Shown here: piece by piece, positions 2,299-52,700 of the stretch
How the letters are laid out: each line of letters begins with the position of its first letter
Position numbering within the stretch: the first letter of the stretch is position 1
Assembly: GCA_937121175.1 (NCBI GenBank)
Contig: CAKZKD010000001.1
Coordinates: 62,001 to 126,000, forward strand
DNA from: an uncultured Flavobacteriales bacterium
GTDB taxonomy: Bacteria > Bacteroidota > Bacteroidia > Flavobacteriales_G > Salibacteraceae
Length of the DNA: 64,000 nucleotides
Reading direction: 5' to 3'
Notes under the pieces: model-generated
What the model was told of the DNA's origin: nothing
What the model saw: only the letters and a program-made list of their open reading frames with translations
Databases searched by the model: none
Position numbers and translations under genes: made by a program

Positions 2299-3315
2299 TT
2301 ACAAAAAATTTGGACAATACTTATAACTGCTGCGCTTTGGAAGTAATTCACGTAGAATGTAAATTACAGAAATTTCCCATCCTCCTCGATTGTTGCTAGC
2401 AGGTTCAAGTTGAGAATAGTTAACGTCGTAGCTAAACCCAACTCTCCATGAATTGTAGTAAAAGCCTAGGTCAAAAATGGCGGCATCCTTATTTCGATTC
2501 CATGCTCCAACAAACAATGCGCGATAACGATAAAATGTAGGGTCGAGCTCGTAATTAATTTCGGATCCAAACACAGTTTCTTTGAATTTTCCTTGTCTCG
2601 AATGAATTACACCTGGTGTTAAAAACCATTGAGGTGTTACATAAAGTGTTGCTGCTAAATGAAAATTTGTTCGTCTGTTCAATGTTCCGCCAGCACCATT
2701 GGTAAATTCGATATTTGGCTCATTTATGTTATAAAACCCAACACCGGCCTTAAAATTTAAATCGCGAGAAATGTCTAGGTTATAAACAGCGCCTGCCGCA
2801 AATACAGCGTTAGCCGAACTACTGCCAGAAATGTCTTCTCCAGAAAGGTCGTCGTCGAAACGATAACCGTTGTATTGCGAACCAAAAGTGGCTGCACTTC
2901 CATCCACAGATTGACTCTCTAATCCAGCTTGAGCACCCAATGTTATACTATGAACGCTATCCTTTGTTATTCCAATGCGGTAGGAGACGGGAAGATTTAG
3001 TTGAATGGTTCGGAAATTTGTAATCCCTACCTTGTCGTGATTGAAGTTTAGACCAATACCAAAGTTCTTGAGATTTAGAAAATCTCGGGCGTCAACTCCG
3101 ATTGATGTGGTTTGGTATGGATTGATAAATGAACGCCATTGTTCTCTGTGATTAAACGCCACTCGATAACGTCCATTAAAGTTGCCTGTCATGGCTGGAT
3201 TTAGGTTATGAGGAGAGTACAGGAATTGGCTAAAGTGAAGGTCTTGAGCGTTAGAAATAAGAGCAGCTCCCAAGAAGAAGAGTACTAAAAAAGACTGTTT
3301 TAATCCGCCGTTCAT
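2299..3315 (-). CDS. PorP/SprF family type IX secretion system membrane protein
   Basis: An outer-membrane beta-barrel-like protein of 338 residues with a signal peptide (about residues 1-23). It carries the family start pattern QFLYSPHNLNPAMTGNFNG followed by YRVAFNHREQW, and the typical CPNFL C-terminus. PorP/SprF proteins work with T9SS type B cargo, often the adhesin encoded next door, and help attach or export it. Its ATG overlaps the stop of the upstream giant gene by one base (TAATG), and its stop is followed at once by the OmpA gene, so the three are translated from one message. No missing parts were seen. Confidence 0.93.
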   Translation of the reverse strand: MNGGLKQSFLVLFFLGAALISNAQDLHFSQFLYSPHNLNPAMTGNFNGRYRVAFNHREQWRSFINPYQTTSIGVDARDFLNLKNFGIGLNFNHDKVGITNFRTIQLNLPVSYRIGITKDSVHSITLGAQAGLESQSVDGSAATFGSQYNGYRFDDDLSGEDISGSSSANAVFAAGAVYNLDISRDLNFKAGVGFYNINEPNIEFTNGAGGTLNRRTNFHLAATLYVTPQWFLTPGVIHSRQGKFKETVFGSEINYELDPTFYRYRALFVGAWNRNKDAAIFDLGFYYNSWRVGFSYDVNYSQLEPASNNRGGWEISVIYILRELLPKRSSYKYCPNFL

Positions 3316-6300
3316 TACTTAATTAGTGTTACGTCTCCCTTCTTTTTAAACTCTTGACCATCAATACATTTAACGTAAAGTTGGTAAACGAAAACTTCAG
3401 GCCAATTTTTCTCACCGTCATAAGTGCCATCCCAACCGTTTTGTTGATCATTGGATTCAAAAACTAATTCGCCCCAACGATTAAAAATTTGAAGGTTCAT
3501 TTCTTCAATATACTTTCCATAAAGTAGCAACTCATCGTTTACTCCGTCATCGTTTGGTGTAAACGTATTTGGAAGGAATAAGTACGGCTCTTCACAAAAA
3601 AGCTCTTCCACCAAGACTTTAAAGTTTCGCTCAACAACACAATTTGGAACCAGAGGGTCAAAAACAGCAACAGTATAAGTGGTAGTAGTATCAGGGTTGG
3701 CAATTGGATTGTCACTTTCCGGGTTGGAAAGTCCTGCTGTTGGTGTCCATAAATAGGCGTATCCTTTTGGGGTAACATCCAGTTCTGAAGTTAATTCGGA
3801 AACAATGGTATCTCTACTTCCTACTAGAACAGCCAATTGAGTGTCTAAATCTGACACAAAAACATATACATTTCTGTCTGCACGACAATTCCGAGAGGTT
3901 TCGACCTTTACATTGTAAACACGACTTTCCGAAGGGTTCACTTTTATAGACGTAGTATCGTTCGGGCCAAAAATATCCTTGAAAGGATTCCAAGTGACTT
4001 GTAGGGTGTCATCGGGTATTAGGCTTCGTACTGTCAAGAAAGTAGTGTCGTTTAAGCACAAATCAACGGAGTCAGTTATACGAATTCCAAAGTCATTAAT
4101 GAAGACTTTTGTAGAGTCGGCAGTTCTGCAGCCTCTCGAAGAAATGGACTGCATGTAAAAGGTGTTCTCAAACAAGGTGTCGTACGAAATAGTTACATTA
4201 CTATCTAACGAAGAACTATTTAACTGATCACTAAAATCATCTCTGGATGACCATTGGTAATTTGTTCCTGTTCCAAAATGCGAACCTACTAAACCTAAAG
4301 TTGGAACATTTGAGCAGATAACAGTGTCGTTAGAGGTTCGTATTCGAATACTATCGGCAGTCATAGGTTGTAATGCGGTGTCAACACAAACTCCCTTGTT
4401 TATAAATAATCTGAAGATGGTATCAACAACGGTGCGTGCAAATGGCCTTGAAATTGCCGAGTCCGTCTTTCCAAACCCCGATTGCCATTGATAAGTGTAG
4501 TTTGGGTTATCTACAATTCCTATAGAATTGAGCTCATTGTTGCAGCTTAAGACATTGCTTAACCCAAAAGAAGTGTCTTGTTTAACTTGTATTGGTTGAG
4601 AAATAGAATCGACAGCATTGCACGAAGTAGAATCTTCTAACACTAGTTTGAGTGTGTAATTTCCAGCTTGGGTAGCGATGAAAATTGGTGAAACTATCGT
4701 GTCAGAACCAATTCCTGATAGTTCCCAACGTATGGAAGTTTGTTTTAGAATGGTGCTATTGTTCTGAATGGAAATTGTATCCGGCGCACAAATAGAATCT
4801 GGAATAGCAAAGGCTGCATCAACTAAAGAATCGACATGAATGTATTGGAAATTGGAGTCTATACAAATTCCATTATCCAACAAAAGTGTGAAAAGAGTAG
4901 GTGCAGTAGGGCTTGCAGTTGGTCGCATTTTCGTTGAGTCTTCCAGAACATCGCCAGGAAGCCAAGTGAAGGAACGATAACTCCCAGTCTGGTTTATTCC
5001 AAGAACGACTTGTTCTCCAATGCATAGGCTGTCGTTTGGTAAGGTTAAACTTTTAGGTTCAATTACAGATACCGTTTTACTTATGGTGTCGAACAGATTG
5101 CATGAAGCAGAGTCAGAAACTAAAAGCAGAATTTTGTATGTGCCAATTGAATCGTAATATAATTTTGGATTTTTGAGCGTGGAGGAGTCTCCATTTCCGA
5201 AATACCAAATGAAATTTGAAGAACCTTGTTCTAAAGATAAATTTCTAAGTTGAACACTATCCTTTATACAGACTTGTCGCGGAATTTGAAATTCCGCGAC
5301 AACTGCCGGAAGTAAAAAATCCATCTTAAAAACTGCATTGTTGCAACCGCCAAAGCCGTTCCAGTTTCGTGCTCCATTAAGATTTGAAGCCGCTCCTGGG
5401 TTTGGTTTAGTTGGAAAGTCACTCGTTCCTCCATTGGTTACAGGGCATCCCGCGCAAACAGATTGATATATTTTACCCTTCCTATCAAAACGTGAAGTAC
5501 CACCATCCACGTGTTCTCGCGCTGAAATTCCGCCGAAAAAAGTTCCATAGATTAATCTACTCGCATCATCTGCTAAGACTGCTAAATACAAGTCACTCCC
5601 ATCGGTTAAGGGTTGAAACGCATCAGATGTAGTATCCATTCCAGTTACCAACGTCGCATTGTTTCCTCGACCGCCATTAGTAGTTCCACCCCAACCTGAA
5701 AGATAAATTGAATTGCATAGATCTACAAGGAATGCTGTAGGCGAAATATTTGGTCTTGCATTTGCTCCCGGGGCTGCTGGAGTTCCAAATTTTGTTGACC
5801 AAACAATAGAATCTATTGCTGGGGTGAACTTAGTTACAAACTGCCCCGCAGAAGCAGTGCTGTATAGTGCGTTGGTAATGAGCTTTGAAGTTGGATCTTC
5901 TGTTTGACCAAATACATAAACATTGTCGAAGCGGTCACGTTCTACAAAGTAGATTTGATCATACTCATTTGAACCAAAATACGTAGAAGCAACTAAGGTT
6001 TGACCATTTGCACTAAATTCTGCCACAAATCCGTCGGCTCTACCTCCTTGGTAAGAATTGTAAGTTGGTAAAGAAGTGGAAGGGAATAGGATAGAAGAGT
6101 TAGTTCCACCTGCCACTGTTATGTTTCCATTACCGCTAAACGCTAACGAATAAATGGCATCTGAAAAAGCACCACCGAAGAATGAACTCCAGATAAGTGT
6201 GTCTAAATCTTGCTTGAATTTACAAATAATACCATCCTGATTTCCTCCTTGATAGGAAGGGTACGCTGGAGAGCCAGTGATTGGGAAATCTCTAGACCAA

Positions 6301-7682
6301 GTGGAGCCAACAACATATACATTATCGTCTCTATCTATATCTATTTCCCCGCGAGCAACATCGGCGTAGTTGTAATTCAACACTCGAGGATACGTTGAAG
6401 TATGAGGCCCAGGATTATTAAGCCCGTCGTGGTCGCTACCTCCGATGTAGGTACTACCTATCAGTGCCGAACCTGCTGTATTGAATCTTGTAATAAACAT
6501 ATCACTGCCTAAATTAAAAGGAACCGCTACTTCCAATCTTCTAGAGTTTGCAACTGTCGGATTTGTAAGTGTATCTTGGTAGGCGTTCGCAGTTGTAGGA
6601 AAGTTTGTAGATCCTGTGGTACCATATACAAAAAGCTCGTCTCTGCTATTAACAACCATAGAGTGAGGCATTTCTCCAGCGGTTCCACCTAAATATGTTG
6701 AATAAACTCTTGAAGTTCCGGAAGTGTCATATTTTGTAATAACTACATCGCAAGTAGAGAAAGCAGGCACGGTAACACCCCCAGAAAACGTAGTCTGGAA
6801 CGCTCCACGAGTTACAGGATAACCAGTTCCAAATACAATTCCACCAGCATATAAAAAGCCCTCCGAATCAAAAGTTGATGTGAAACCAAAGTTTGTTGTT
6901 GTGCTTCCAGAGTACGTCGAAAAAATCAAGGTTGGATCAATAACAATGGGCTGTAAAAGATTTTCATTTGAAACCTTCAAATCGAAAGTCAATTGGTTGT
7001 TTTGCAATTTATACTTCGCAGCGATGGTATCGTTTTTTTGCTCAGTAGAAAGGGGTGATGTGTGGAACACAACCGGTGGTTCTTCACTAACATCTCCCAA
7101 ACTAGTTTCAATTGTAAAAATTCCATTTTTTACACTCAAATCGTCATAGCCATCGTATTCAAGTTTAATTTGTTGTGCTGCAGCATAATTTGCACAATGA
7201 AATTCATATTTGATACTCCCATTGTGACTAAAGATGTGTAAATCAACTCCGTTGTAGAGTTCTTTGTAAACTACTGCATGACTCAACGGAACATTGGATT
7301 TCCATTTGGTCGGGTCCTTTCCTAGATAATAATTGTTGTATTCCTCAAGCAAGTCCTCCTGGAAGATTGTTGGGTTCGGATTAGCCCCAACAAATGAAGC
7401 GCTGTAAACATGCTGTTTGAGAATTGCATCGTCCCAATCTCCTTTGTAGGCTCCTGTATGAATTTGGGCAATGACACTTAGATCGGTAAGTTGAACCAGT
7501 ATTCGATTCGACTCGAGGTATAAATTACCTTCTGGAAGTGCTACTTTATAGTTGATGTTCTGGTTCCATTGACCTAGGTTTTTAATGAATTTATACTCTT
7601 TGGCGTTATGATTATGAGCATTTGCGGTATTAGCAAACAACATAATAACAATCAAATACGTCAAGCGATAAAAACACCTCAT
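3315..7682 (-). CDS. giant T9SS type B surface protein with SBBP repeats and PKD domain
   Basis: A 1455-residue exported protein. A signal peptide (YLIVIMLFANTANA) is followed by an N-terminal domain typical of SBBP proteins (from FIKNLGQWNQNINYKV). Then come beta-propeller SBBP repeats at about 250-780 (recurring patterns such as YSTYLGGTAGE and STYIGGSDHDG), a PKD domain near 795-875 (WYFGNGDSSTLKNPKLYYDS), further Ig-like repeats, and a gliding-motility type C-terminal domain (LPNTFTPNDDGVNDEL, IFNRWGELVFES, GWDGTYDG). That C-terminal signal targets the protein to the T9SS type B route. It is the first gene of the cassette, upstream of porP. The adhesive ligand is unknown. Confidence 0.93.
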   Translation of the reverse strand: MRCFYRLTYLIVIMLFANTANAHNHNAKEYKFIKNLGQWNQNINYKVALPEGNLYLESNRILVQLTDLSVIAQIHTGAYKGDWDDAILKQHVYSASFVGANPNPTIFQEDLLEEYNNYYLGKDPTKWKSNVPLSHAVVYKELYNGVDLHIFSHNGSIKYEFHCANYAAAQQIKLEYDGYDDLSVKNGIFTIETSLGDVSEEPPVVFHTSPLSTEQKNDTIAAKYKLQNNQLTFDLKVSNENLLQPIVIDPTLIFSTYSGSTTTNFGFTSTFDSEGFLYAGGIVFGTGYPVTRGAFQTTFSGGVTVPAFSTCDVVITKYDTSGTSRVYSTYLGGTAGEMPHSMVVNSRDELFVYGTTGSTNFPTTANAYQDTLTNPTVANSRRLEVAVPFNLGSDMFITRFNTAGSALIGSTYIGGSDHDGLNNPGPHTSTYPRVLNYNYADVARGEIDIDRDDNVYVVGSTWSRDFPITGSPAYPSYQGGNQDGIICKFKQDLDTLIWSSFFGGAFSDAIYSLAFSGNGNITVAGGTNSSILFPSTSLPTYNSYQGGRADGFVAEFSANGQTLVASTYFGSNEYDQIYFVERDRFDNVYVFGQTEDPTSKLITNALYSTASAGQFVTKFTPAIDSIVWSTKFGTPAAPGANARPNISPTAFLVDLCNSIYLSGWGGTTNGGRGNNATLVTGMDTTSDAFQPLTDGSDLYLAVLADDASRLIYGTFFGGISAREHVDGGTSRFDRKGKIYQSVCAGCPVTNGGTSDFPTKPNPGAASNLNGARNWNGFGGCNNAVFKMDFLLPAVVAEFQIPRQVCIKDSVQLRNLSLEQGSSNFIWYFGNGDSSTLKNPKLYYDSIGTYKILLLVSDSASCNLFDTISKTVSVIEPKSLTLPNDSLCIGEQVVLGINQTGSYRSFTWLPGDVLEDSTKMRPTASPTAPTLFTLLLDNGICIDSNFQYIHVDSLVDAAFAIPDSICAPDTISIQNNSTILKQTSIRWELSGIGSDTIVSPIFIATQAGNYTLKLVLEDSTSCNAVDSISQPIQVKQDTSFGLSNVLSCNNELNSIGIVDNPNYTYQWQSGFGKTDSAISRPFARTVVDTIFRLFINKGVCVDTALQPMTADSIRIRTSNDTVICSNVPTLGLVGSHFGTGTNYQWSSRDDFSDQLNSSSLDSNVTISYDTLFENTFYMQSISSRGCRTADSTKVFINDFGIRITDSVDLCLNDTTFLTVRSLIPDDTLQVTWNPFKDIFGPNDTTSIKVNPSESRVYNVKVETSRNCRADRNVYVFVSDLDTQLAVLVGSRDTIVSELTSELDVTPKGYAYLWTPTAGLSNPESDNPIANPDTTTTYTVAVFDPLVPNCVVERNFKVLVEELFCEEPYLFLPNTFTPNDDGVNDELLLYGKYIEEMNLQIFNRWGELVFESNDQQNGWDGTYDGEKNWPEVFVYQLYVKCIDGQEFKKKGDVTLIK

Positions 7683-16316: not shown

Positions 16317-19300
16317 CTAATTTCTAACTACGGTTGGGGTTAAATTTTCTTTTAATGCAGTCAATTCTTTTTCGAAAACACTTTCGCTAATTTCTTCACC
16401 GTTTTTGTAGTAATCATCAAAAACTCCCCAGTTGGTTTCGTGCACATATTCAGTGATTGCTCCTTTATGATAAACTCGGCTTCTATCCACAGTATAAATA
16501 CCAAAACCTTCTCTAAATTCTTTAATACGATACGTTAAGTTTAGGTCAAAAATACTGTCCGTAGAAACTGGTGGAATATCAGAGCGTCTAAAGCCTAAAG
16601 CCTCGGCCACAATTTGATTCAACATTTGACGCGTTTCAAGTGCTTTTATCATACTCTCGTCAACCTCTTGCTTTGGTGGAGTAGAAACGGTGTAGCCCGT
16701 ATTTACAATTCGCTGCATATCTAAATTCACATCCTGCATACTGCGAACTTTTTGCCCTTGAATTCCTTGCATCATATTGTGGAAATCACCCATAATTTCA
16801 TTTTTAGCAGCTAAGTTTCGATTGACCTTTTTTTGCTGCTGACGCTCAATACCTGCAGTGGTGGTAGCTGGAGCCATATCCTCGTCCAGTACAGGACTGG
16901 CAATAATTTGTTGGGTAACAATAGTCTCGGTCTCTAGCTGTACTTCTTTTTTCTTCCTTTTTTCTTTTTTGTCTTTTTCCTTCTTCTCTTTTTCAGATTT
17001 CTCTTTCTTGTTCTTTTCGTCTTTATTGTCTTCCTCGTCCTCTTTTGCTGGAGGGGTAGGAGCAACATACAAGTTGGCTATAAAATCACTTTCAACAGCA
17101 TCAACTTCTACAAATTCATCCTTATCCGAATCAAATCGAACTCGAGAAAATGGTTTTAAAAATGCCATGGCGTTTATTTTCTCTTCTTTACGGTTTACAA
17201 TAATGAGGTCTAGACCTTTAACCTTTTTATCAATTAGCCGTTCCTCGCCATTGTTAGTTTTGGTGCTTACCGCAGCATACGACCGGTAGAAATTATCATC
17301 TTCGATAACCACTCGGTAGTCCTTCTGATAGGGTAGAAGTAGTTCGTAGTTTCCTTTCTCATCAGATCTGACCGAATCAACTAACGTCGCACCTTCGTAA
17401 ACCATTACTAAGGCAGAGCCTATAGACTTTCCCTTGGCGTTTTTAGTTTTTCCTTCAATTGCTAATTTTTGATTATCCGGAACTGTGTTTAAAATGGCTA
17501 CAAAGGATTGTTCAACTGCAGGTTCAGATACAAATAAATTATTCTGCTCATCTACCTTGAAGCTTTTAGCTTTTTTGTTGAAGGCTAGAGGATTAGCGTT
17601 TTTATCATTCTCTTTGTACAATGTAAGTGCAGGTATAGTCAATGGTTTTGACTGAATTTGCGCAATGTTTTCCACTTTAGTATCAAAGTCAATTTTGGTG
17701 GAGTGATAGTTTTTCTTTGACAATTCAGCGGTTAGCTTTTTGTTTGGGGGTAAGTTTAAATTAAAAGCTCCGTTCTCATCGGAAAGGGCTGTTGCAATTT
17801 CATCTCCATTTTCAAATACAATAATTTCAATACCTTCAATAGCCTGATTCTTTTTGTTTTGAGTAATTCCAGCTACACTTATGGTTTTGGTTGGTGTCGG
17901 AGGAATAATAGTATCTGTTTTTTCTTCTTCAACATTATCAGCAATGACAACTGTGTCAACTGGCGGAGTTGGAACATCAGCCAATGGCGGTTGATAGGCT
18001 TCCACGGCATTAACGAATTCACTAAAGGTACTTGTATCCTCAATAAACAAATCGTCTTCTTCACTAAAATAAAAGGCCGTTATAACTCGATCTTCCATGA
18101 GTCCTGGTGGAATAGGTTTACCCGCAATTTCATTTTCTTTGTGTACAATTGGGGCTCGCAATCCAACTTGAGTAATATCAGTATTCTCTTTACCATTAGG
18201 TACTTTGGTGTCAAATTTTACCAATGTTGGGTAGTAATCTTCTTTTTCGAACTCTAAATAGTAAAGTTTATTTAAACCTAGTTGAGTAGTAAATTTACCT
18301 TTCTTGTCTGTTTCCATTGAACTAACTACAGCCTTGTTTTCGTTCAAAACTCGAACTCTTCCAGATTCAATTTTTCCGTTAGTAGCGGGGTCAAACACTC
18401 GAGCAGATAAAATGAGAAAGCCGTCAGCGACTGAAGTATCTAAAATCACCGGTTTTTGTTTTGCAATTAGCGTGTCAAAGTCAGATTTTGCAATTGTATC
18501 CAATACAAAACCATTAGTTTTTTTATCGTAGAAAAACTTCTGCACAGGTAAAGCAAATGCCTCTGGATTTACGTTAGGATCGTCTTTACTGTACATTTTT
18601 ACTGGAACCGTCATAGATTTAATGCTATCCATTTGGTCAAAGTCCATGTTGGTATTTAGGCTTACAAAAATGGGGTGGTAACCTTCTGCTTTGTAGTTTA
18701 CATGCACGATCGATTGGTAAGGGATTTCAACCTCGTATTTTGGGCTATTGACTTTATAGTCAGCATAAAGTGCATCCCCGTCCAAAACCTCAATATCCAT
18801 TGGAACAACTTTTCCACCATTAGGGTCAGTCAAATTTCCAGAAAGTAACAATCTACGTTTAGTCACTTCTACAGCATACTCATAATTCTGACGAACAATA
18901 GAGTCTTGATAAAAATGCTCGTTCGCTGTGTTGTAAAGTATTTTGTCTTCAGGTATTTCTTTAACAGAAGCCGAAATTCGCTCCGCTTTGGGTATTACTA
19001 TAAAATCATGATTCAGCTCAAAATAATCTTCTTTATTCCCTTCAGGCACAAAGCCTTCTATTTCTGCAAAAGAGGTGTGATGGTTTTCGCTAATTAGTGC
19101 GAGTTTAGTTTTGTTCATGAGAGGTACCTCAATAATATAATTGCCTGATGAATCGGTAGTCGTTTCGGCAACAATTCTTCCGAGAGAGTCCAATGCCTCA
19201 ATTTTAACCACAAGACTATCCGATTCTCTATCAGAAACCAATCCTGTCAGTTTAAGCTTTCCAATATTTGGCTCCGTAACTTGATCCAAAAATGCAAAGG

Positions 19301-19778
19301 TGTGGTCCAGATCTTCTATGAATATGCCGTAAGCACTATTGTAATCAACCTTCATAAAAGGTTCTATTTTGGCAGTATGCTTATTAAAGTTTGATGAATC
19401 GTTAAGCAGAACGATGGCAGATTCATAATAGAGCGATTTGTAAGCCTTTGTTTTTGGAACTTTGGTGTCAAAAGTTCCAAACATCGTCACGTACCCATCT
19501 TTTTCGAAATATACCCTTACAAATGCGTTGTATTCTAACTGGAAACTAAATTTCCCTTTTTGGTCAGTGTAATATTCATTCAGCACCTTTCTTCCTGTGC
19601 TGTCTTTGATTATCACCTTTGCGCTGTCTAGGTTTTTATTTTTTTCATTTTTTATTCGGCCAGTCACTTCCAATTTCCCCTTTTCAACATCAAGCCTAAC
19701 TGTAGGAATAATGACTGCACTACACAATAAAATGAGCAGCGAAACAAGAATACTGTTATAGAGGAATTTACCGTACAT
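16317..19778 (-). CDS. large envelope protein with six carboxypeptidase-regulatory-like modules
   Basis: An 1153-residue protein of unknown function. An N-terminal hydrophobic segment (SILVSLLILLCSAVIIP) exports or anchors it. Six diverged modules of about 145 residues fill residues 34-905. Each pairs a beta-sandwich of the carboxypeptidase-regulatory type (pattern D.KG.F...L.....Y.V..E) with a connector ending in an aromatic-acidic strand such as SFKVDEQNNLFVSE. FDTKVP recurs in modules 1 and 4, as FDTKVE in module 5. A proline-threonine linker precedes module 5. A lysine-glutamate block (about 906-955) separates the modules from a C-terminal region of about 200 residues. No T9SS signal was seen. 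Confidence 0.75.
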   Translation of the reverse strand: MYGKFLYNSILVSLLILLCSAVIIPTVRLDVEKGKLEVTGRIKNEKNKNLDSAKVIIKDSTGRKVLNEYYTDQKGKFSFQLEYNAFVRVYFEKDGYVTMFGTFDTKVPKTKAYKSLYYESAIVLLNDSSNFNKHTAKIEPFMKVDYNSAYGIFIEDLDHTFAFLDQVTEPNIGKLKLTGLVSDRESDSLVVKIEALDSLGRIVAETTTDSSGNYIIEVPLMNKTKLALISENHHTSFAEIEGFVPEGNKEDYFELNHDFIVIPKAERISASVKEIPEDKILYNTANEHFYQDSIVRQNYEYAVEVTKRRLLLSGNLTDPNGGKVVPMDIEVLDGDALYADYKVNSPKYEVEIPYQSIVHVNYKAEGYHPIFVSLNTNMDFDQMDSIKSMTVPVKMYSKDDPNVNPEAFALPVQKFFYDKKTNGFVLDTIAKSDFDTLIAKQKPVILDTSVADGFLILSARVFDPATNGKIESGRVRVLNENKAVVSSMETDKKGKFTTQLGLNKLYYLEFEKEDYYPTLVKFDTKVPNGKENTDITQVGLRAPIVHKENEIAGKPIPPGLMEDRVITAFYFSEEDDLFIEDTSTFSEFVNAVEAYQPPLADVPTPPVDTVVIADNVEEEKTDTIIPPTPTKTISVAGITQNKKNQAIEGIEIIVFENGDEIATALSDENGAFNLNLPPNKKLTAELSKKNYHSTKIDFDTKVENIAQIQSKPLTIPALTLYKENDKNANPLAFNKKAKSFKVDEQNNLFVSEPAVEQSFVAILNTVPDNQKLAIEGKTKNAKGKSIGSALVMVYEGATLVDSVRSDEKGNYELLLPYQKDYRVVIEDDNFYRSYAAVSTKTNNGEERLIDKKVKGLDLIIVNRKEEKINAMAFLKPFSRVRFDSDKDEFVEVDAVESDFIANLYVAPTPPAKEDEEDNKDEKNKKEKSEKEKKEKDKKEKRKKKEVQLETETIVTQQIIASPVLDEDMAPATTTAGIERQQQKKVNRNLAAKNEIMGDFHNMMQGIQGQKVRSMQDVNLDMQRIVNTGYTVSTPPKQEVDESMIKALETRQMLNQIVAEALGFRRSDIPPVSTDSIFDLNLTYRIKEFREGFGIYTVDRSRVYHKGAITEYVHETNWGVFDDYYKNGEEISESVFEKELTALKENLTPTVVRN

Positions 19779-19800: not shown

Positions 19801-19829
19801 CAAAAGTATGAATTTCAATAGGGTACAAA
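19801..19829 (-). promoter_or_regulatory. promoter of the six-module protein gene
   Basis: On the minus strand TACTTTTG (19801-19808) matches the Bacteroidota -7 element TAnnTTTG, and TTTG (19826-19829) lies 17 bases upstream as the -33 element. The start codon at 19778 leaves a leader of about 16-20 bases. With the rpsF promoter this is one of the two best two-part promoters in the window. Confidence 0.65.
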
Positions 19830-19843
19830 TACTGGAAATGCGA

Positions 19844-21271
19844 TTATTTCCCCTTGTTTTTAGGGTCAAAATTCCAGTCCCAAATTTTAATTTCTTCTCG
19901 GGTATTCGTTTCAAACAGTTGTTTGAACGTGCGCTCAATACCACCACCTGGACTGAATGCAGGAGATTGAATCAACTTTCCATTCGGGTCAATTAAATAA
20001 TACAATGGAATTAGTGCAATGTCATAATCGGCTTTTAATTGTTCATTATTGCCTGCATATAACATCACCCATGGATAAGTATTGGATTCTAAATATCGGT
20101 CGAAACGTTTTTTTCTTTCGTCAATGTTAATACTAATGAACTCAACGTTGTCTTTGTATTTTGGATACAATTGCTTCATCACCTGCATAGATTTTAAGCA
20201 GGGTTTGCACCATGTTGCCCAAAAATCTAGATAAACATATTTTCCTCTAAAATCTTTGAGTGAGACCAAATTACCGTTTTCATTTTCAAACGTAAACGCA
20301 GGTGCTTCAGCCCCAATTCCTAATTTGCGCAAACGAGTTAAATAATAGGACGCTATTTGTTGGTTTTCTTTAGTGATTCCACCTTCAACCAGTTTGGAAA
20401 GCATTTTATCTACGGCAACCGCATCAGTTTTTTTATCGTTGACAGCTAACCGAAATAATTCTTTTGCAATTACTATTTCTCTCAGTGTGTCGTTCACAAG
20501 AAAATCGTTTTCAGCCAAAAGCGTATTAATTTTATCCAACTCACCATGTTTAATGAATTGTGCTATACTGTCACTTTCAGTAGTTAAATTATATCGATAA
20601 AACCATTTATGATAGAAATCATTCACCAGATTCACGTATGCAATATTCTGATATTCAATGCTTTTATCAAGACTGGATGAATAAACTTCAAGATCTGTAA
20701 ATTTTGCTTTGTAGAGTAATGAACCACAAACGGCATCAACGTAGCTTTTGTAAAATGAGTTTGAAGAATAAAGGTTGTTCGATTTTAAATCATCAATAAA
20801 ATCTTCAACCAAAGGTTTAGCTTTTTTCTTTAAAAAGGCTAGGTAATTTTTTTGCTCGAAAGAATCTAATTGAACATTCAAAACACCAATTGCTTCATTA
20901 ATGTGGTCTTTGTCCATTTCAATCAACTTGGCTGGCAAATATTTATCCTTGCTTAATGGAGGGGCAGATTTAGGGTCAAACCTGTTCAATTCGATTTTAT
21001 ATTCTGCATTAGGAGCCAAGTAAAAGTTACTTCTGTACTCCTTAATTTTGAGTGCGGCTAGCTGTGTACTGTTGATGTTATAATCAAATTTGAATGTACC
21101 ATCTTCAGCAATAATCTGTTCACTAACAAATATGGGTTGCCTGCAAAACTGGTCGGTGTAAAGAACCAGTCTAATTTTTTCTCCAGTATAATCTTTGGCT
21201 ACGCCTGAAACTATTGAGCTTCGGCTGATAAACGAAAAGAGTAGTAAAGTACTGCAAAGAAATATGCGCAT
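19844..21271 (-). CDS. TlpA/ResA-like thioredoxin-fold protein, exported
   Basis: A 475-residue exported protein. A signal peptide (RIFLCSTLLLFSFISRSSI) is followed by an N-terminal beta-rich domain (to about 120), a helical middle part and a C-terminal thioredoxin domain with FWATWCKPCLKSM (near residue 355) and a cis-proline region around IALIPLYYLIDPNG. Redox proteins of this layout reduce or isomerise disulfides in the periplasm. Its start directly abuts the coaD stop, so it is the last gene of the DUF3822-rsmD-coaD operon, although no functional tie to CoA synthesis is evident. Confidence 0.85.
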   Translation of the reverse strand: MRIFLCSTLLLFSFISRSSIVSGVAKDYTGEKIRLVLYTDQFCRQPIFVSEQIIAEDGTFKFDYNINSTQLAALKIKEYRSNFYLAPNAEYKIELNRFDPKSAPPLSKDKYLPAKLIEMDKDHINEAIGVLNVQLDSFEQKNYLAFLKKKAKPLVEDFIDDLKSNNLYSSNSFYKSYVDAVCGSLLYKAKFTDLEVYSSSLDKSIEYQNIAYVNLVNDFYHKWFYRYNLTTESDSIAQFIKHGELDKINTLLAENDFLVNDTLREIVIAKELFRLAVNDKKTDAVAVDKMLSKLVEGGITKENQQIASYYLTRLRKLGIGAEAPAFTFENENGNLVSLKDFRGKYVYLDFWATWCKPCLKSMQVMKQLYPKYKDNVEFISINIDERKKRFDRYLESNTYPWVMLYAGNNEQLKADYDIALIPLYYLIDPNGKLIQSPAFSPGGGIERTFKQLFETNTREEIKIWDWNFDPKNKGK

Positions 21272-21727
21272 CTATAGCTGAAAATTTTTGGGAACGAATG
21301 CTGATATATCTCCACCACTTTTATATATCTCACGGACTATAGTCGAACTAATTGCGGAGTGTTCTGGTTCACTAATCAAAAACACGGTATCAATGTTCGA
21401 TTCCATTTTGCGATTCATTTCTGCAATATTTTTTTCAAATTCAAAATCAATCGATGAGCGCAAACCACGAATAATGTGCTGTGCGTCAATTGATTTACAA
21501 AATTCAACGGTCAAGCCTTCGTAGGATTGCACCTGTACTTTTTCTTCTTGTGAAAAACACTTTTCAAGTGCAGAAATTCTTTGTTCTAGCGGAAACAGGT
21601 ACTGCTTAGTTGTATTAACACCGACAGCCAAAATAATTTTGTCAAAAAGAGGTAGTGCTCTTTTGATAATTGCTTCGTGACCAATTGTTATAGGGTCAAA
21701 ACTCCCAGGAAAAACAGCCCTTTTCAT
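21272..21727 (-). CDS. coaD: phosphopantetheine adenylyltransferase
   Basis: The fourth step of coenzyme A synthesis: it joins ATP and 4'-phosphopantetheine to dephospho-CoA in the cytoplasm. The nucleotidyltransferase motif GSFDPITIGHEAII is at the N-terminus, RGLRSSIDFEFEKNIAEMN covers the pantetheine pocket, and the ISSTIVREI motif closes the ATP site. At 151 residues it is a little short of the usual 160 but complete. It follows rsmD by 13 bases; rsmD-coaD adjacency is common in bacteria. Confidence 0.97.
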   Translation of the reverse strand: MKRAVFPGSFDPITIGHEAIIKRALPLFDKIILAVGVNTTKQYLFPLEQRISALEKCFSQEEKVQVQSYEGLTVEFCKSIDAQHIIRGLRSSIDFEFEKNIAEMNRKMESNIDTVFLISEPEHSAISSTIVREIYKSGGDISAFVPKNFQL

Positions 21728-21740
21728 AGTACAAAGTTAT

Positions 21741-22283
21741 TTATTCGGGGTCGGCATTGAAGAACGTAAAGTTGACATGCCCAAATTTTCGTGAAAATTG
21801 AAAATGCTCTTCGTTTTCAAAACTATGTTCACGGCCATGTTCCAAAATGAACCAGCCTCCTGAAGTTAACCAATTATTCGAAAAAACGAGTGCTGGTAAC
21901 TTTACCAATTCTGGCGATTGGTACGGTGGATCAGCAAAAATTAAATCAAAACTGTCTAGGTTTTCTTTCAATAAAAATTTGAAAACGTTTTGTTTTGCCA
22001 CTTTCAAATTAGCTGATAAATCGCGTGCTGTTTTAGCTTGATATCCAGCACATACTCGGTTTTGTTCTACAGATAATCCGAAAGAGGCGCCTCTGCTACT
22101 GAATTCAAAAGAGATGTTTCCTGTACCACTAAACAGATCCAAAATTCTGAGGTCTTCAAATGAAATACGATTTTCTAGGATATTAAATAAACCTTCTTTC
22201 GCAAAGTCAGTAGTAGGCCGGGTAGGAATGTTTTTGGGGGCTACCATTTTCCGACCCTTATATTGACCTTTAATTATTCGCAT
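21741..22283 (-). CDS. rsmD: 16S rRNA (guanine(966)-N(2))-methyltransferase
   Basis: It methylates G966 of 16S rRNA with S-adenosylmethionine. The 180 residues begin with the family pattern MRIIKGQYKGRK and RPTTDFAKEGLFNIL. Motif I is DLFSGTGNISFEF and motif IV FADPPYQSP. The ATG lies inside the end of the DUF3822 gene (10-base overlap), which shows translational coupling. Length and motifs are normal. Confidence 0.95.
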   Translation of the reverse strand: MRIIKGQYKGRKMVAPKNIPTRPTTDFAKEGLFNILENRISFEDLRILDLFSGTGNISFEFSSRGASFGLSVEQNRVCAGYQAKTARDLSANLKVAKQNVFKFLLKENLDSFDLIFADPPYQSPELVKLPALVFSNNWLTSGGWFILEHGREHSFENEEHFQFSRKFGHVNFTFFNADPE

Positions 22284-23032
22284 AGCAGCAGCTGAAAGGG
22301 TATAGTAGGAGTTTTTTCGTTTTCGATCATCGGTTGGTAGTCTATGAATTTTTTTATTAATTCAAAATCTATGGCTTCATCGTTTGTCATGCTGGAAAGA
22401 TAAAACTTCAACTCAGAGCGTTCGATATCCAATTGGTCTAAAGAATAAAGCGTGTAATAAGTGATGTCTTCAGTCGAATTGTAATCAAACTTATTTTGAA
22501 TCACCACTTCATTGTCCATTTTTACAAGCAACTCAAAAACATTGTTGTACAAGTATATATGGGCTGTGTTTTTTTCTGTTTGGTTATGACTTGTATTGTT
22601 GGCAATTTCAGTAGTGGAGAAAAACTCAGGTGTTTTAAAAGTTGATTTACACCATTCAACAATTTCTGGGTTTAACATCGAAGCGATTTTATGGTTTGAA
22701 TTGCTTTTAATTCTCAGTTGAAGACAATCTTCTTTCTCTAAACCGAAATCAAAAGCGAATAAATCTTCGCAAGTTTTGTTCTCGAATTGAAGCGGGAAAA
22801 TTGAAGAATAATTGGCTAGAATTCCAACCCTAATTTTTGAGAAATCTAATCTTTGATATGGCAGGCGGTTCCAAACTGAAGAGCAATTTTCGGCAATGGA
22901 TTTGGATGCTATCAAAGGAAATAACTGATGCGCAAGAAATGTTTTATCGTGGTTTGAATAAACGCTTAAACTTACCGAATTGTCACCAAAAACTAAGAAT
23001 AAGTTGACGTTAGATTGTTGAGCCCAATTCAC
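22274..23032 (-). CDS. DUF3822 family protein
   Basis: A 252-residue soluble protein typical of Bacteroidota and usually found beside rsmD. It starts with alternating strands (VNLFLVFGDNSVSLSVYSNH), as expected for this family's actin/ASKHA-like appearance, which is my inference. The start is GTG at 23032. The frame is open back to the stop of the upstream gene but holds no ATG. It overlaps rsmD by 10 bases. The biochemical role is unknown; the constant rsmD link hints at ribosome or cell-cycle work. Confidence 0.78.
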   Translation of the reverse strand: MNWAQQSNVNLFLVFGDNSVSLSVYSNHDKTFLAHQLFPLIASKSIAENCSSVWNRLPYQRLDFSKIRVGILANYSSIFPLQFENKTCEDLFAFDFGLEKEDCLQLRIKSNSNHKIASMLNPEIVEWCKSTFKTPEFFSTTEIANNTSHNQTEKNTAHIYLYNNVFELLVKMDNEVVIQNKFDYNSTEDITYYTLYSLDQLDIERSELKFYLSSMTNDEAIDFELIKKFIDYQPMIENEKTPTIPFQLLLCE

Positions 23033-46779: not shown

Positions 46780-49700
46780 ATGCGTTTATTTCTAGTTTTA
46801 GCCTTATTATTTGTATCACTATTTACACATGGTCAACTCAACGGAGTTTATACTATTGGTGGTGTTTCTCCAAACTATTCAACTATATCAGCGGCGGTTG
46901 GAGCATTAAACTCAGTAGGTGTGAGTGGGTCTGTCGAATTTAAAATTAGACCTGGCAAATACAACGAAAGTGTTACAATAGATACAAGTATTGGTGGAAG
47001 TCCAGTCAATAAAGTCGTTTTCAGGAAAGACCTTGCGTTCGCGGGAGAGGTTCATTGGTTCAATACCGGAATTCCATTGAAATTCGAAAACGCACAGTTT
47101 ATTACGATTCGAGATTTGACCATTGAATCCACTGGGGATAGAGTAATTTTTATCACCGGAGAAACCAATAATATTAACATCGTAAATAATCTTATCAGAG
47201 GATATCAAACTCACAGTGCGTCTTATTGTGTCACCATAGTTGGCCACTCTGTGAACAACGTAAATAATGTTTCGATAGACTCCAACACAATTAGGCACGG
47301 AGCTGGAGCTGTTTTTTTAGGTGGAGGAACTTCAAACAGAAATAAAAACAATAAAATATCAAACAATATTTGTGACAGCTCTGGTTACAATGGATTTAAT
47401 GTAGCTGGAAATGATTCAGTAATTATTAGAAACAATATTATTCGGGACAACGGCGTACAAATGAACACTCAAGGCATACGTCTAAATTATTGTAGTTATT
47501 TTAAGGTTGAAGCAAATACTATTTATCAATTAAACACGAACTCGCCTTTAGGTATCGACATTGCAAACAGTGGCGGTAGTTCCTCAAACCACGCGCAAGT
47601 GTCGAATAATTTTCTTTTTTCAAAAGCTGGGTTATACGGGATAAGGTCTTCGAACTCAAATGAAATTGATTACTCCTATAATACCATTAGATTGGAAGGC
47701 GTAAATTCTAATAGTCGTTGTGTCAGTTTAGATTATGGGAGGGTTTATTTAAAAAATAATATTTTCTCAAACCACGCAGGAGGAAGAGCTCTATATATTC
47801 CGAGCAGATATTCTTTGATGTACAGTAATTTCAATGATTTTTATTCAACAGATTCGTCGCAAACGGTCTATGCAGGAAATAGTTATTTAAGTTTTTCGAG
47901 TTACCAATCTCAGCTGTCAAAAGATACTAATTCAGTAAGTGTACACCCAAAATGGACAACTCTTGAAGGATATGAGCCTTCTTCATTGTATATAAATGAT
48001 GCTGCAGAAGTTATTTCGACCATCACCACTGACATTATTGGTAAAATAAGAGGAGTTAATCCTGATATAGGTTGTTTTGAGTTTAAATCTGCGAATAATG
48101 ATGCGGGATTGGATAGTGTTTTAACAGAACGATGCGAAGGGGTCTCAACCGTGAGGGTTAAGATTAAAAATCACGGACTAAATCCTATAAGTCAGGTAGT
48201 TGTGAATTGGAACTTGAAAACTGGAGGAGGGCCATCAGCGCCTCAAACGTCGGCAAAAATTGCAGGATTATCAATTCCAGTTTTTGGGGATACAATAGTT
48301 GAAATAGGCACAATGAATTTTTTAAGAAAAATTAGATATGAATTAAGTGCCTCCATAGATTCGGTAAATGGGGTTAAGGATTCGATACCAAGAAATGATA
48401 CTGCGCATGTAGATTCGGTTTTTTCTAAAATGAGTGGTGCATTCACGGTTGGAGGAATAAATCCAGATTTTTCAAATGTTCTCGATGCTCTTGCAGCATT
48501 ACAAAAAAATGATGTATGTGGTCCGGTTATCTTTAATATCAGGCCAGGAGAATATTATGGTAGGCATACTCTTTTTAGTGTGGAAGGGGTTGATTCAATC
48601 AATACAGTTTTATTTCAAAGTGATACCTCTTTTTCTGGATGGGCCCATTTAACCTATCGAGGTGCACCACTCCAATTTTACGGAGTGAAATATTATACGT
48701 TCAAAAACCTGAAATTTTCTACAACAAGAATTTCTTCCGTAGTTAATTTTAGCGCTGCCAACGAAGGTATTACGTTTCTAAATGACTCCTTGGTTGGAAC
48801 CAATGTTAATACCTCCATACGTGATTTCAATTCTGTGTTTTATCAAAGTTCTTCCTCTTCGGGAGTACAAAAAAACTTAGTTATTAAGCATTGTGTAATC
48901 CTTAATGGTTCAAGAGGAATTCATCTCATAGGAAACGGGGGAACTGGTATAAAACATCCTTATAATGTAGAGATTACAAATAACAAGATTCTAGGATTTT
49001 ACTATACAGGGGTTTTTCTATATAATACACCTCATTCGTTGGTGCATAAAAATATTATTGATGACAACTACAGTCATACTTCAGGAAATGGAGTGTTTGT
49101 GCAGGGCTGTGTTTCAACAACTCTAAGCGCTAACAAAATTTCAATCAGGGCTGGAAATGGAGTGGATCTTAGGTATAACATAGGCACTCAATCAACGGAT
49201 GCAGTTCGGATGTTTAACAATTTCATTTTTTTTAAAGACACATCTGGAGCGAATTTACAGCACGGAATTCGCGGTGATAATAATAATTATTTGACCGTAG
49301 CATTTAACTCGGTTAAGGTCTCTAAAGGCACTAATGCTTCTACTGCTATTTACATGCAAAGTGGTTTAGGCTGGAAAATCGTAAATAACAATTTTTCAAA
49401 TTTTGGAACCGGTCTAGTTCAACAATACGGAAATGCTTCTGGAGTAACCTTATTGAATCATAACAACTCATACTATAATGGCACAAACCTAGGATTCTAT
49501 AACGGAACTGTCGGTTCACTCAGTGCCTGGCGAACTGCGACTGGACAAGCTGGAAATTCAAAAAATGTTCATCCGCAGTTTTACAGTTTTTCTGACCTGC
49601 ACACGAATAGTTTAGATTTCGATGGTCAAGGTACACCAGTTCCTGATATTCAAGAAGATATTGATGGCCACTTGCGGAATACAACTTCTCCAGATATTGG

Positions 49701-52700
49701 CGCTGATGAATTTACGATTTTCAATAATGATGCAAGTATTGTCAGTATTAACGAATCCTCTGTCTGCGGTGGAAATAACCCCGTTTTTATTACCCTACGA
49801 AATGTTGGTACAAACACCTTGAATTCTACAACCATTGGCTGGAAAATAAGTACTAACGGCGGGGCGTTTATTAATCAACCTTCCTATAATTATACTGGTA
49901 CTCTTGCTACAAGTGAGGATACATCCATCAATATAGGAAGTTTTCAGTTTCTAATTGGTACGAATTATCAAATTCAGTTTTACACAACCGATTTTAATGG
50001 ATTAGCTGACCAGAATTTGAATAATGATAGTATCAAATCTGTAATACTAAAGCCTAAAATGTCTGGGGTATATACAGTCGGTAACTTGCCAACAGATGAT
50101 TGGCAAACAATAGATTCTGCAATAACTCAATTAGAACTGAATGGAGTATGTGGCCCAACGACAATATATATTCGAGCCGGAACGTACGCTGAAGCATCTA
50201 GAATAACCAACATTCCTGGAGCTAATAAAGTAAATGATGTTCTAATTTTAGGAGATACGAATGGGACTAAACCAACATGGGTCTATGGCTTTAACGCAAT
50301 ATTGGGTTTTGTTAACACCGGGTATATCACCTTTAAAAACATCAAATTTAGCTCTACCAGTAATTTCCACTCAATGATTGATTTCAATGGTAACAATGAG
50401 CATATCCATTTTATTGATAACGAAATCATTGGTCGAGCACTTGGTATTCACGGAGGTGCGTCTTATTTGATTGATAATAATGACCAGAGTAACACTCAAA
50501 CCAATTATTGCTCATTTATCAATAACGACATATTTAATGGCAATATGATAATTCGCTGGCATGGTAATTCTACTTCGCACAGAGAAAAAGGGAATAAATT
50601 TATTGGCAATAGAATATTTGGCGCTCATGGCTATGGAGTTCAAATATTTAGTCAGGACAGTCTTGAGTTTCGGAATAACTATATTAAAGGAAGAGCTAAT
50701 ATCACAGCATTCGGAATTGGTTTAAATGTTCACTATACTTCGCGGTATAAGATTACCGGAAATAGAATTGAAATGCCTTCTGGTAATTATGGTATGCACG
50801 TAACTTGGTCTTCTGGAATTGGCACAGATACAAGCCTAATAGCTAACAATTTTGTTTCAGTTGGTGGAAATTCAAATGGATATTATGGAATTAGTGTTAC
50901 CAATTGCCACAATCAAAAATTAGTTCATAATTCCGTGAATATGTATGGTACAGGTACTAGTTCATTTGCTTTTTATCTGAACGGAGGAAGTGATTCAAAA
51001 ATCATGAACAATTCTTTTGTAAACTCGGTCGGTGGCCCAGCCATTGGAGCCCAAAGTACTCGTACAGGAGTCATTTGCGACTATAATAATCTATGGACTT
51101 TGAGCACACAGAATTTTTCTTTTGTTGGGGGTCAAAGCTACCAAACTTCATTTGCGCAATGGAGACTGGCTAGTGGTTATGATGCCAATTCCATACAAGT
51201 ACCACCAAATTACTTAGATTCATTCGATTTACATGTCAACTCAAATAATTTAAATAGACGTGGTTTTCCAGTTGGGATTTTATTTGATATTGATGGCGAC
51301 CTAAGGTCTATGACTACGCCCGATATTGGCGCAGACGAAATTGTAGGTATAAATAGGGATGTTGAGTTAATGGGCTATTCTTTTTCTAGATTATGCAACG
51401 GCAAAACTCAAATAAGTATCAATTTTAATAATCGTGGATACGATACCTTAAAAACCACCACATTTATTACAACATTATCCATTAACGGAGGAATGCCGAC
51501 ACTAATTGATAGTACAATTTTTAACGGTGCATTACCTGAAAATCACGTGGCTACCATAACTCTAGATAGTGTTAATCTTAATAAAAATGATAAACATGTT
51601 CTAAGTACTTACAGTCACTTATTTAATAATTTGAATGATGAGTATCGAGCAAATGATACTATTATTGATTCACTGCCTTTGTCATCAATACCAATGCTTT
51701 CAGGGCTGATTTCCGCACAACAAGTTCCAAAATGCTATGGTGACACCACGGCTATTCTTGGTGCAACTGTAAGTGGGGGAGTGTCACCGTTTGTTTACAG
51801 TTGGTCCAATGGTGACACGACTTCAATAATTCATTCCTTAAGCGGGGGTACTTATATGCTCACAGTTTCAGATTCTAGCCAATGCGCGGATACTGTATCT
51901 TTTACGCTTATTCAACCGGATTCCATTGGAATTAATCTTAAAATTGACTCCATACTTAAATGTTTTGGTGACTCGAATGGGGTTATATCCTCTAATGTTC
52001 AGGGTGGAGTGACTCCTTATAATTATACTTGGTTAAATCAAAAAACTACTTCCCAGGTACGCAATTTACATTCTGGATTATATGTACTTACTGTCACCGA
52101 TTCCAATAAATGCGTTAAGGTTGATTCGTTGTGGTTAGTTGCGCCTAATCTTCTTTCTAGTACAGTAGATTCAATACAACATGTTACATGTGAGTTTGGT
52201 GCTAATGGTAAGGTTAAATTGGCAACCGCTGGTGGAACCCCTCCATATTCTTACTTATGGAATAATGGAAAAGTTGGAGCCATTGTCGATTCGTTGAACG
52301 AAGGAAAAGTAAGTGTGTTAGTATCGGATTCTTTAGGATGTAGAACAACGGTTTCTGATTCTATTGCTTTTGATTTTACAAATCCTGCAGTTCAACTTGG
52401 AAACGATACGAGCAGTTGCTCAAATAAATTGGTGTGGTTAGACGCTCAAAATAATGGGAGTAATTTCTTATGGAATACCGGAGATACTATTCAGTCAATA
52501 TTACCTCTTAAATCAGGTAGCTATTCTGTAATAGTAACCGATAACAATGGCTGCAAGGGATTTGATACCGTAAGTATCGTATTTAATATAGTTTGCGTAG
52601 GAATTGAAGAAATTTCAAAGTCTAATCAAGTAGTATTTTATCCCAATCCTAATTCGGGCAGTTTTCGCGTTCGTTTTACTGAACCCTATTCGGAATCTGT

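Follow-up and report, generated by a model that had tools for sequence, protein, structure and literature searches.

Several described proteins come close to the architecture considered here. According to the available part of PMC5790014, GldM and PorM sit in the inner membrane and extend four domains, about 180 Å in length, across most of the periplasm. NOMO, in the available excerpts of PMC12262048 and PMC8327139, is a rod of ∼27 nm in the lumen of the endoplasmic reticulum (ER), built of 12 tandem immunoglobulin (Ig)-like folds and bearing piconewton forces; its lengthening leads to a wider ER lumen (PMC8327139). PorE/PG1058 and the CHU_0125-type OmpA family have one carboxypeptidase regulatory domain (CRD) each, in the accessible portion of PMC5053529. 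Here we describe a gene in a 64,000-nucleotide stretch of DNA, the window, from an uncultured marine Flavobacteriales bacterium of the family Salibacteraceae (contig CAKZKD010000001.1, positions 62,001 to 126,000). It encodes a protein of 1153 amino acids (aa), the array protein, in which a unit composed of a CRD-type β-sandwich and a connector occurs six times in tandem. Bacteroidota are not known to have an Lpp tether of the E. coli type, and little is understood of how they keep their two membranes apart. We propose, with a probability of about 0.4, that the array protein is an inner-membrane-anchored periplasmic strut or rod of fixed module number, which would bridge or space the periplasm.

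The layout that we propose, an N-terminal inner-membrane anchor followed by tandem periplasmic domains running towards the outer membrane, resembles that of GldM/PorM as given in the accessible text of PMC5790014, whereas the number and fold of the domains differ. The GldM model TIGR03517 was not among the NCBIfam matches of the array protein at E ≤ 1, and the genome has its own GldM elsewhere (G000:C5:216805-218391). NOMO, too, has Ig-like sandwiches in tandem, attached to a single membrane helix, the location of the array protein being presumed; NOMO differs in being eukaryotic, in having 12 domains and in placing the membrane helix after them (PMC12262048, available part). The module profile matched NOMO2 (9c7v) with E 2.9e-7 over 51 positions, which cover part of the sandwich and exclude the connector, and PF22902 (NOMO1-like) was a weak Pfam match of the array protein. 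The likeness to the CRD families PF13620 (CarboxypepD_reg) and PF13715 (CarbopepD_reg_2) resides in the sandwich half of the modules, to which the array adds the connector, a helix-hairpin-helix of ∼39 residues, and the sixfold tandem arrangement. PG1058, in contrast, has tetratricopeptide repeat (TPR), β-propeller and OmpA peptidoglycan-binding parts that are absent from the array protein, and has no array; NF053607, the model of the CHU_0125-type OmpA family, gave a partial match of 50 bits against a cut-off of 620.

The sixfold repeat, with modules of ∼140 aa (Table 1), is genuine. When each module in turn was left out and scored by a profile made from the other five, all six scored between 38.7 and 72.4 bits, whereas the best score among shuffled modules was ≤ 15.1 bits (1000 shuffles per module, of which 930–992 gave a score). 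The initial annotation, made from the DNA letters, had proposed just such a repeat, and this part of it holds. The FDTKVP strand that it had described as recurring is less regular: only modules 1 and 4 have it in exact form, module 5 reads FDTKVE, modules 3 and 6 contain related motifs and module 2 has none. Its lysine/glutamate block near the C-terminus does exist, at residues 912–945, but comparison with the ortholog sequences led us to reject it as a conserved element, several of them having it much shorter or not at all. In the nine intact arrays that we compared, 0–6 residues lie between module matches at junctions 1–2, 2–3 and 5–6, 3–17 at junction 3–4 and 3–48 at junction 4–5.

AlphaFold2 modelled the single module, from 42 aligned modules, with a mean predicted local distance difference test score (pLDDT) of 90.4 and a predicted template modelling score (pTM) of 0.84, as seven strands followed by a short helix, a β-hairpin and a helix. 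The full-chain model, for which seven sequences were the input, reproduced the order sandwich, short helix, β-hairpin, helix in all six modules, as opposed to unrelated folds, at a pTM of 0.34; its block pLDDT was mostly 70–89, falling below 50 at residues 598–629, the disordered linker between modules 4 and 5. SleC was the top structural match of the module (Z 9.9, residues 1–126). The sandwich matched the metallocarboxypeptidases 5aq0 (the transthyretin-like domain of carboxypeptidase D; Z 9.4, root mean square deviation 1.9 over 80 residues), 2nsm (Z 9.3, 79–80 residues) and 1qmu (Z 9.3), and its likeness extended to the N-terminal extension of SusC (9hfj, Z 9.0). Most structural matches stop near module residue 95, ahead of the connector, and the match list held none to the whole module or the connector, which is not proof of a new fold. 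The whole protein scored 95.5 bits with PF13620 (cut-off 32.3) in four stretches, single modules alone remaining below the cut-off; this score and the seven-stranded transthyretin-like sandwich of the model and its structural matches are those of the CRD superfamily. A phmmer search of the whole protein against the PDB gave no match at E ≤ 1.

The connector lies outside the known CRD families, as had been suspected: the best stretches of PF13620 and PF13715 end ahead of it, and the six window connectors, searched alone, matched nothing in Pfam or NCBIfam at E ≤ 1. It had been read as an acidic-aromatic strand, a description that the models contradict; its pattern is N-x-x-A-F-x-x-P, a hairpin Y-D ... 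F-x-x-D and then a helix. A connector-only profile from 60 array modules found 17 of 23 single-module connectors and the reverse profile found 14 of the 60, while neither found any of 460 shuffled connectors; the two profiles aligned with an hhalign probability of 97.3. Because the profiles find each other's connectors and align, the connector is, as judged from these comparisons, a true part of the module. At one position of its final helix, 59 of the 60 array modules have F or Y as against 3 of the 23 single modules, and this residue is a candidate for packing module against module; the F or Y is retained also where a linker comes next.

A full-length profile detected array orthologs in 10 of the 42 order genomes; the ten belong to one family, and identities go down to 23%. 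All ten have six modules, nine in an intact gene and one (G014) in a gene frame-broken into four plus two. In a tree of the modules (85 rows, few columns, 25 open forks) these clustered mostly by position, with 12 label changes compared with 55.4 in shuffles and a possible minimum of 7; some modules of G009, G011 and G018 fell away from their position. Because six modules are kept in ten orthologs and modules group by position, the array most likely expanded once, early, its number staying constant thereafter without the turnover of variable-number arrays. A scan of named genomes, made with the full array protein as opposed to a single module, gave six loci, all in metagenome-assembled genomes labelled Flavobacteriales or Crocinitomicaceae. 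The G014 ortholog (locus L036, in a one-contig genome; open reading frames (ORFs) of 621 and 522 aa) has one break between modules 4 and 5 and apparently a second one close to the N-terminus, sequencing error and real decay not being distinguishable. A gene of 182 aa with a single module sits there between tlpA and the array gene; this module groups with array module 1 in the tree and is possibly its duplicate.

The module itself is common in the family. A module profile at E ≤ 1e-9 found it in 34 of 35 family genomes, mostly as one copy, and the view that the connector, or its pairing with the sandwich, is private to the array protein was rejected. Equally rejected was a wide spread of the pair through the phylum at such similarity: at E ≤ 1e-12 the module occurred in 2 of 148 genomes of an even phylum sample, one being the window's own. 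Among the loci retrieved, a module at E ≤ 1e-6 was present in 63 distinct ORFs: nine have six modules, the split gene of G014 contributes one ORF with four and one with two, one other ORF (L125) has two and the rest have one. The single-module carriers are mostly stand-alone or TPR/coiled-coil secreted proteins. The TPR/coiled-coil and ∼180-aa types have the module, connector included, in common with the array; they differ in having one module, a cleavable-looking signal and a TPR or coiled coil in place of modules 2–6, and some carry a C-terminal tail similar to that of the array. The connector defines an extension of the CRD, common in the family and missed by current profile libraries, with which many proteins labelled 'carboxypeptidase-like regulatory domain' could be better classified. 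The window's genome has four clear single-module relatives, one of 813 aa and three of 178, 417 and 562 aa that adjoin one another (L082, G000:C3:194000-213000), two of the three having TPR matches and a tail of the form WGG..YFKNG. Similar pairs or triplets of neighbouring single-module genes occur in G005, G008, G014 and others. The two-module ORF of 550 aa (L125, G008:C109:8000-17000) represents the only intermediate count observed, and its tail looks array-like by eye.

In the literature searched we found neither CRD arrays nor CRD/TPR proteins of this bacterial group, and the available parts of the T9SS (type IX secretion system), PorE and competence literature (including PMC5053529 and PMC8459023) describe no such array. 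The fold itself is not new. Descriptions of the connector as a distinct half of the module, of the constant array of six and of the missing cleavage motif discussed below were not found there, and these features are new as far as that search reaches.

The most hydrophobic 19-residue stretch of the array protein starts at residue 9. A small-x-small motif followed by Q is typical of Bacteroidota signal peptides, and such a motif (AxA/Q) closes the hydrophobic stretch in 42 of 47 single-module ORFs and in none of the nine arrays with a readable N-terminus, that of the tenth (G014) not being readable. The 47 are those of the 63 ORFs in which the module begins no further than about 120 residues from the start of the ORF; this rule excluded four, and two fragments or two-module ORFs had no readable N-terminus. 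Because the arrays are without the cleavage motif of their single-module relatives, their N-terminal helix may be retained as an anchor in the inner membrane. The only cysteine of the window protein, Cys19, lies within the hydrophobic stretch after L-L and does not form a lipobox; four other compared sequences have no cysteine. The T9SS tail models TIGR04183 and TIGR04131 (NCBIfam), PF18962 and PF13585 (Pfam) gave no match to the array protein at E ≤ 1, in line with the tail-less C-terminus already noted in the initial annotation, and its Pfam matches included no Plug or barrel of the TonB-receptor, SusC type. Since a T9SS tail, a lipobox cysteine and the AxA/Q motif are all missing, the inner-membrane or periplasmic location suggested there is supported, on sequence grounds.

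In the strut that we favour, the array protein would be exported by Sec, its N-terminal helix remaining uncleaved in the inner membrane, and the connector would fix the orientation between sandwiches and stiffen the chain. At ∼4 nm per module, a figure that assumes a length per domain similar to that of GldM, the six-module rod would measure ∼25 nm, near the width of the periplasm. The conserved C-terminal region would hold on to a partner located at the outer membrane or the cell wall, or close by, and the protein would serve as a spacer or tether with a set number of modules. We favour this reading because all ten orthologs have six modules, which mostly group by position, all six share a fold and the F/Y position is characteristic of arrays, and because the readable arrays lack the cleavage motif and the window protein matches no T9SS tail model and has no cysteine outside the hydrophobic stretch. 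GldM/PorM offer a parallel in layout and NOMO one in principle. The function had earlier been sketched as a filament or spacer; a spacer fits the regular tandem architecture, though it is unproven, and a filament is without support.

Several points weigh against the strut. No ortholog was found in 25 of the 35 family genomes or 32 of the 42 order genomes, some of which are incomplete, and the function is therefore dispensable or replaceable. The ten orthologs are related, so that their shared six does not amount to ten independent observations. At a pTM of 0.34 the relative placing of the modules is undefined, and the model gives neither the straightness nor the length of the chain. Towards the end of the hydrophobic stretch, six of the ten array rows show a looser AxA-like triplet, and the arrays may still be cleaved by signal peptidase I. 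The C-terminal region, aligned over 7 rows, is poorly modelled, lacks a known binding fold and matched no model of Pfam or NCBIfam, the best E of its profile against the PDB being 0.1. Finally, the 4–5 linker, at 3–48 residues, is a hinge and speaks against a strict ruler. We regard as doubtful the stronger proposal of a bacterial membrane ruler, in which an array of six welded CRD modules, neither more nor fewer, anchored in the inner membrane, would set or sense how far apart the two membranes lie, having arisen when a common secreted single-module protein was amplified once and lost its cleavage site. Were it true, the array protein would be a periplasmic counterpart of NOMO with a connector fold of its own.

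The gene neighbourhood bears on a different explanation, in which the array protein is a periplasmic scaffold whose six diverged modules are docking faces for partners, possibly including the adjacent TlpA-like protein, and its length is irrelevant. The array gene follows tlpA on the same strand after a gap of 65 bp, and coaD-tlpA stands ahead of the array in nine of the ten orthologs, the contig of the tenth (G009) ending within the upstream ORF. This conserved neighbour, the grouping of modules by position, as expected with one partner per face, and a variable 4–5 linker that tolerates changes in length all agree with a scaffold. Yet in genomes without the array, tlpA follows coaD at 19 of 20 coaD loci (L046-L065, the rows of L054 being covered in part; L063 has coaD without a tlpA match), and no module ORF is listed at any of the 20. 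Because coaD-tlpA stands without the array at 19 loci, the array gene was added to, or lost from, an older coaD-tlpA locus; the presence of tlpA is independent of the array, and a partnership with TlpA was rejected as the sole explanation. Moreover, the array protein has no cysteine outside the hydrophobic stretch that would make it a TlpA substrate, and inspection by eye recognized no partner- or ligand-binding motif. We think a scaffold unlikely.

Less likely again is a secreted surface protein, of adhesin or surface-layer type, whose conserved C-terminal tail, common to it and the TPR paralogs, would serve as a not yet described signal for export or anchoring. Several TPR-type single-module relatives end in the WGG..YFKNG tail, and a comparison of 10 array tails with 9 such tails gave an hhalign score of 28.5 over 57 columns (probability 51), compared with ≤ 15.6 in 60 column-shuffled controls. 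A relationship between the tails is suggested by this, not proven; surface and pilus proteins are among the structural neighbours of the module, and the genome, having a GldM gene, probably has a T9SS. Nevertheless, the array protein lacks the AxA/Q signal-peptidase motif and matched no T9SS tail model, while PF18962 or PF13585 tails are present on two further large proteins of the window. The module number of adhesin arrays usually varies, that of the array protein being fixed. The two tailed proteins are one of 2030 aa (46780-52872, +), with SprB repeats, β-helix matches and a Por_Secre_tail, and one of 1455 aa (3315-7682, −), with DUF7948, PKD and a CHU_C tail.

A soluble, multi-domain periplasmic protein whose signal peptide is removed and whose role, for instance in envelope stability, is a housekeeping one unconnected with length would suit the AxA-like triplets and the cleaved look of the single-module relatives, but is improbable given that the AxA/Q motif of those relatives occurs in none of the readable arrays and that the module count is constant over deep divergence.

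Table 1. Positions of the array protein, its parts and its neighbours in the window.
Feature	Residues (aa)	Position	Strand	Basis or remark
Six-module array protein	1-1153	16317..19778	-	ORF, stop codon included
N-terminal hydrophobic helix, putative uncleaved signal anchor	2-23	19710..19775	-	model helix H2-23
Module 1	34-172	19263..19679	-	module profile, AlphaFold2 model
Connector of module 1	131-169	19272..19388	-	helix-hairpin-helix in full-chain model
Module 2	173-307	18858..19262	-	module profile, AlphaFold2 model
Connector of module 2	268-305	18864..18977	-	profile, full-chain model
Module 3	308-445	18444..18857	-	module profile, AlphaFold2 model
Connector of module 3	402-440	18459..18575	-	profile, full-chain model
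Module 4	453-598	17985..18422	-	module profile, AlphaFold2 model
Connector of module 4	551-594	17997..18128	-	profile, full-chain model
Low-confidence linker, modules 4/5	599-630	17889..17984	-	pLDDT < 50
Module 5	631-769	17472..17888	-	module profile, AlphaFold2 model
Connector of module 5, stretch quoted in the initial annotation	727-765	17484..17600	-	profile, full-chain model
Module 6	770-909	17052..17471	-	module profile, full-chain and single-module AlphaFold2 models
Connector of module 6	867-905	17064..17180	-	profile, single-module model
Lysine/glutamate-rich linker	912-945	16944..17045	-	composition, ortholog sequences
C-terminal region	986-1153	16320..16823	-	alignable across orthologs, low-confidence model
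C-terminal tail, resembling WGG..YFKNG tail of single-module TPR paralogs	1082-1138	16365..16535	-	hhalign
Promoter-like site TTTG-N17-TACTTTTG		19801..19829	-	match count at chance level
TlpA/ResA-like thioredoxin-fold protein, upstream neighbour		19844..21271	-	position kept in orthologs
coaD, conserved host locus		21272..21727	-	presumed name
rsmD-like gene, conserved host locus		21741..22283	-	presumed name
DUF3822 protein, conserved host locus		22274..23032	-	family match

The two genes that we take to be coaD and rsmD-like were named from knowledge of such sequences; rsmD precedes coaD in the window and in those orthologs for which a wider region was listed. The array gene had been credited with a well-formed promoter of its own, a claim that the sequence does not support: the two-box string between tlpA and the array gene occurs 5 times in the window, where 5.4 occurrences are expected by chance, and was discarded as evidence. 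Inspection by eye shows a −7-like TAnnTTTG box ahead of the array in four orthologs, none of which has both boxes of the motif. The three most diverged orthologs (L037, L038 and L039, from G011, G018 and G009) have next to the array an ORF of 869–887 aa that appears by eye to be of propeller/regulator type, a neighbour different from those of the other orthologs. On its other side, the array gene of the window is directly bordered by a convergent DNA methylase gene (PF01555; 15584-16315, +), and in three genomes of the same genus an ORF of 201 aa lies between the two.

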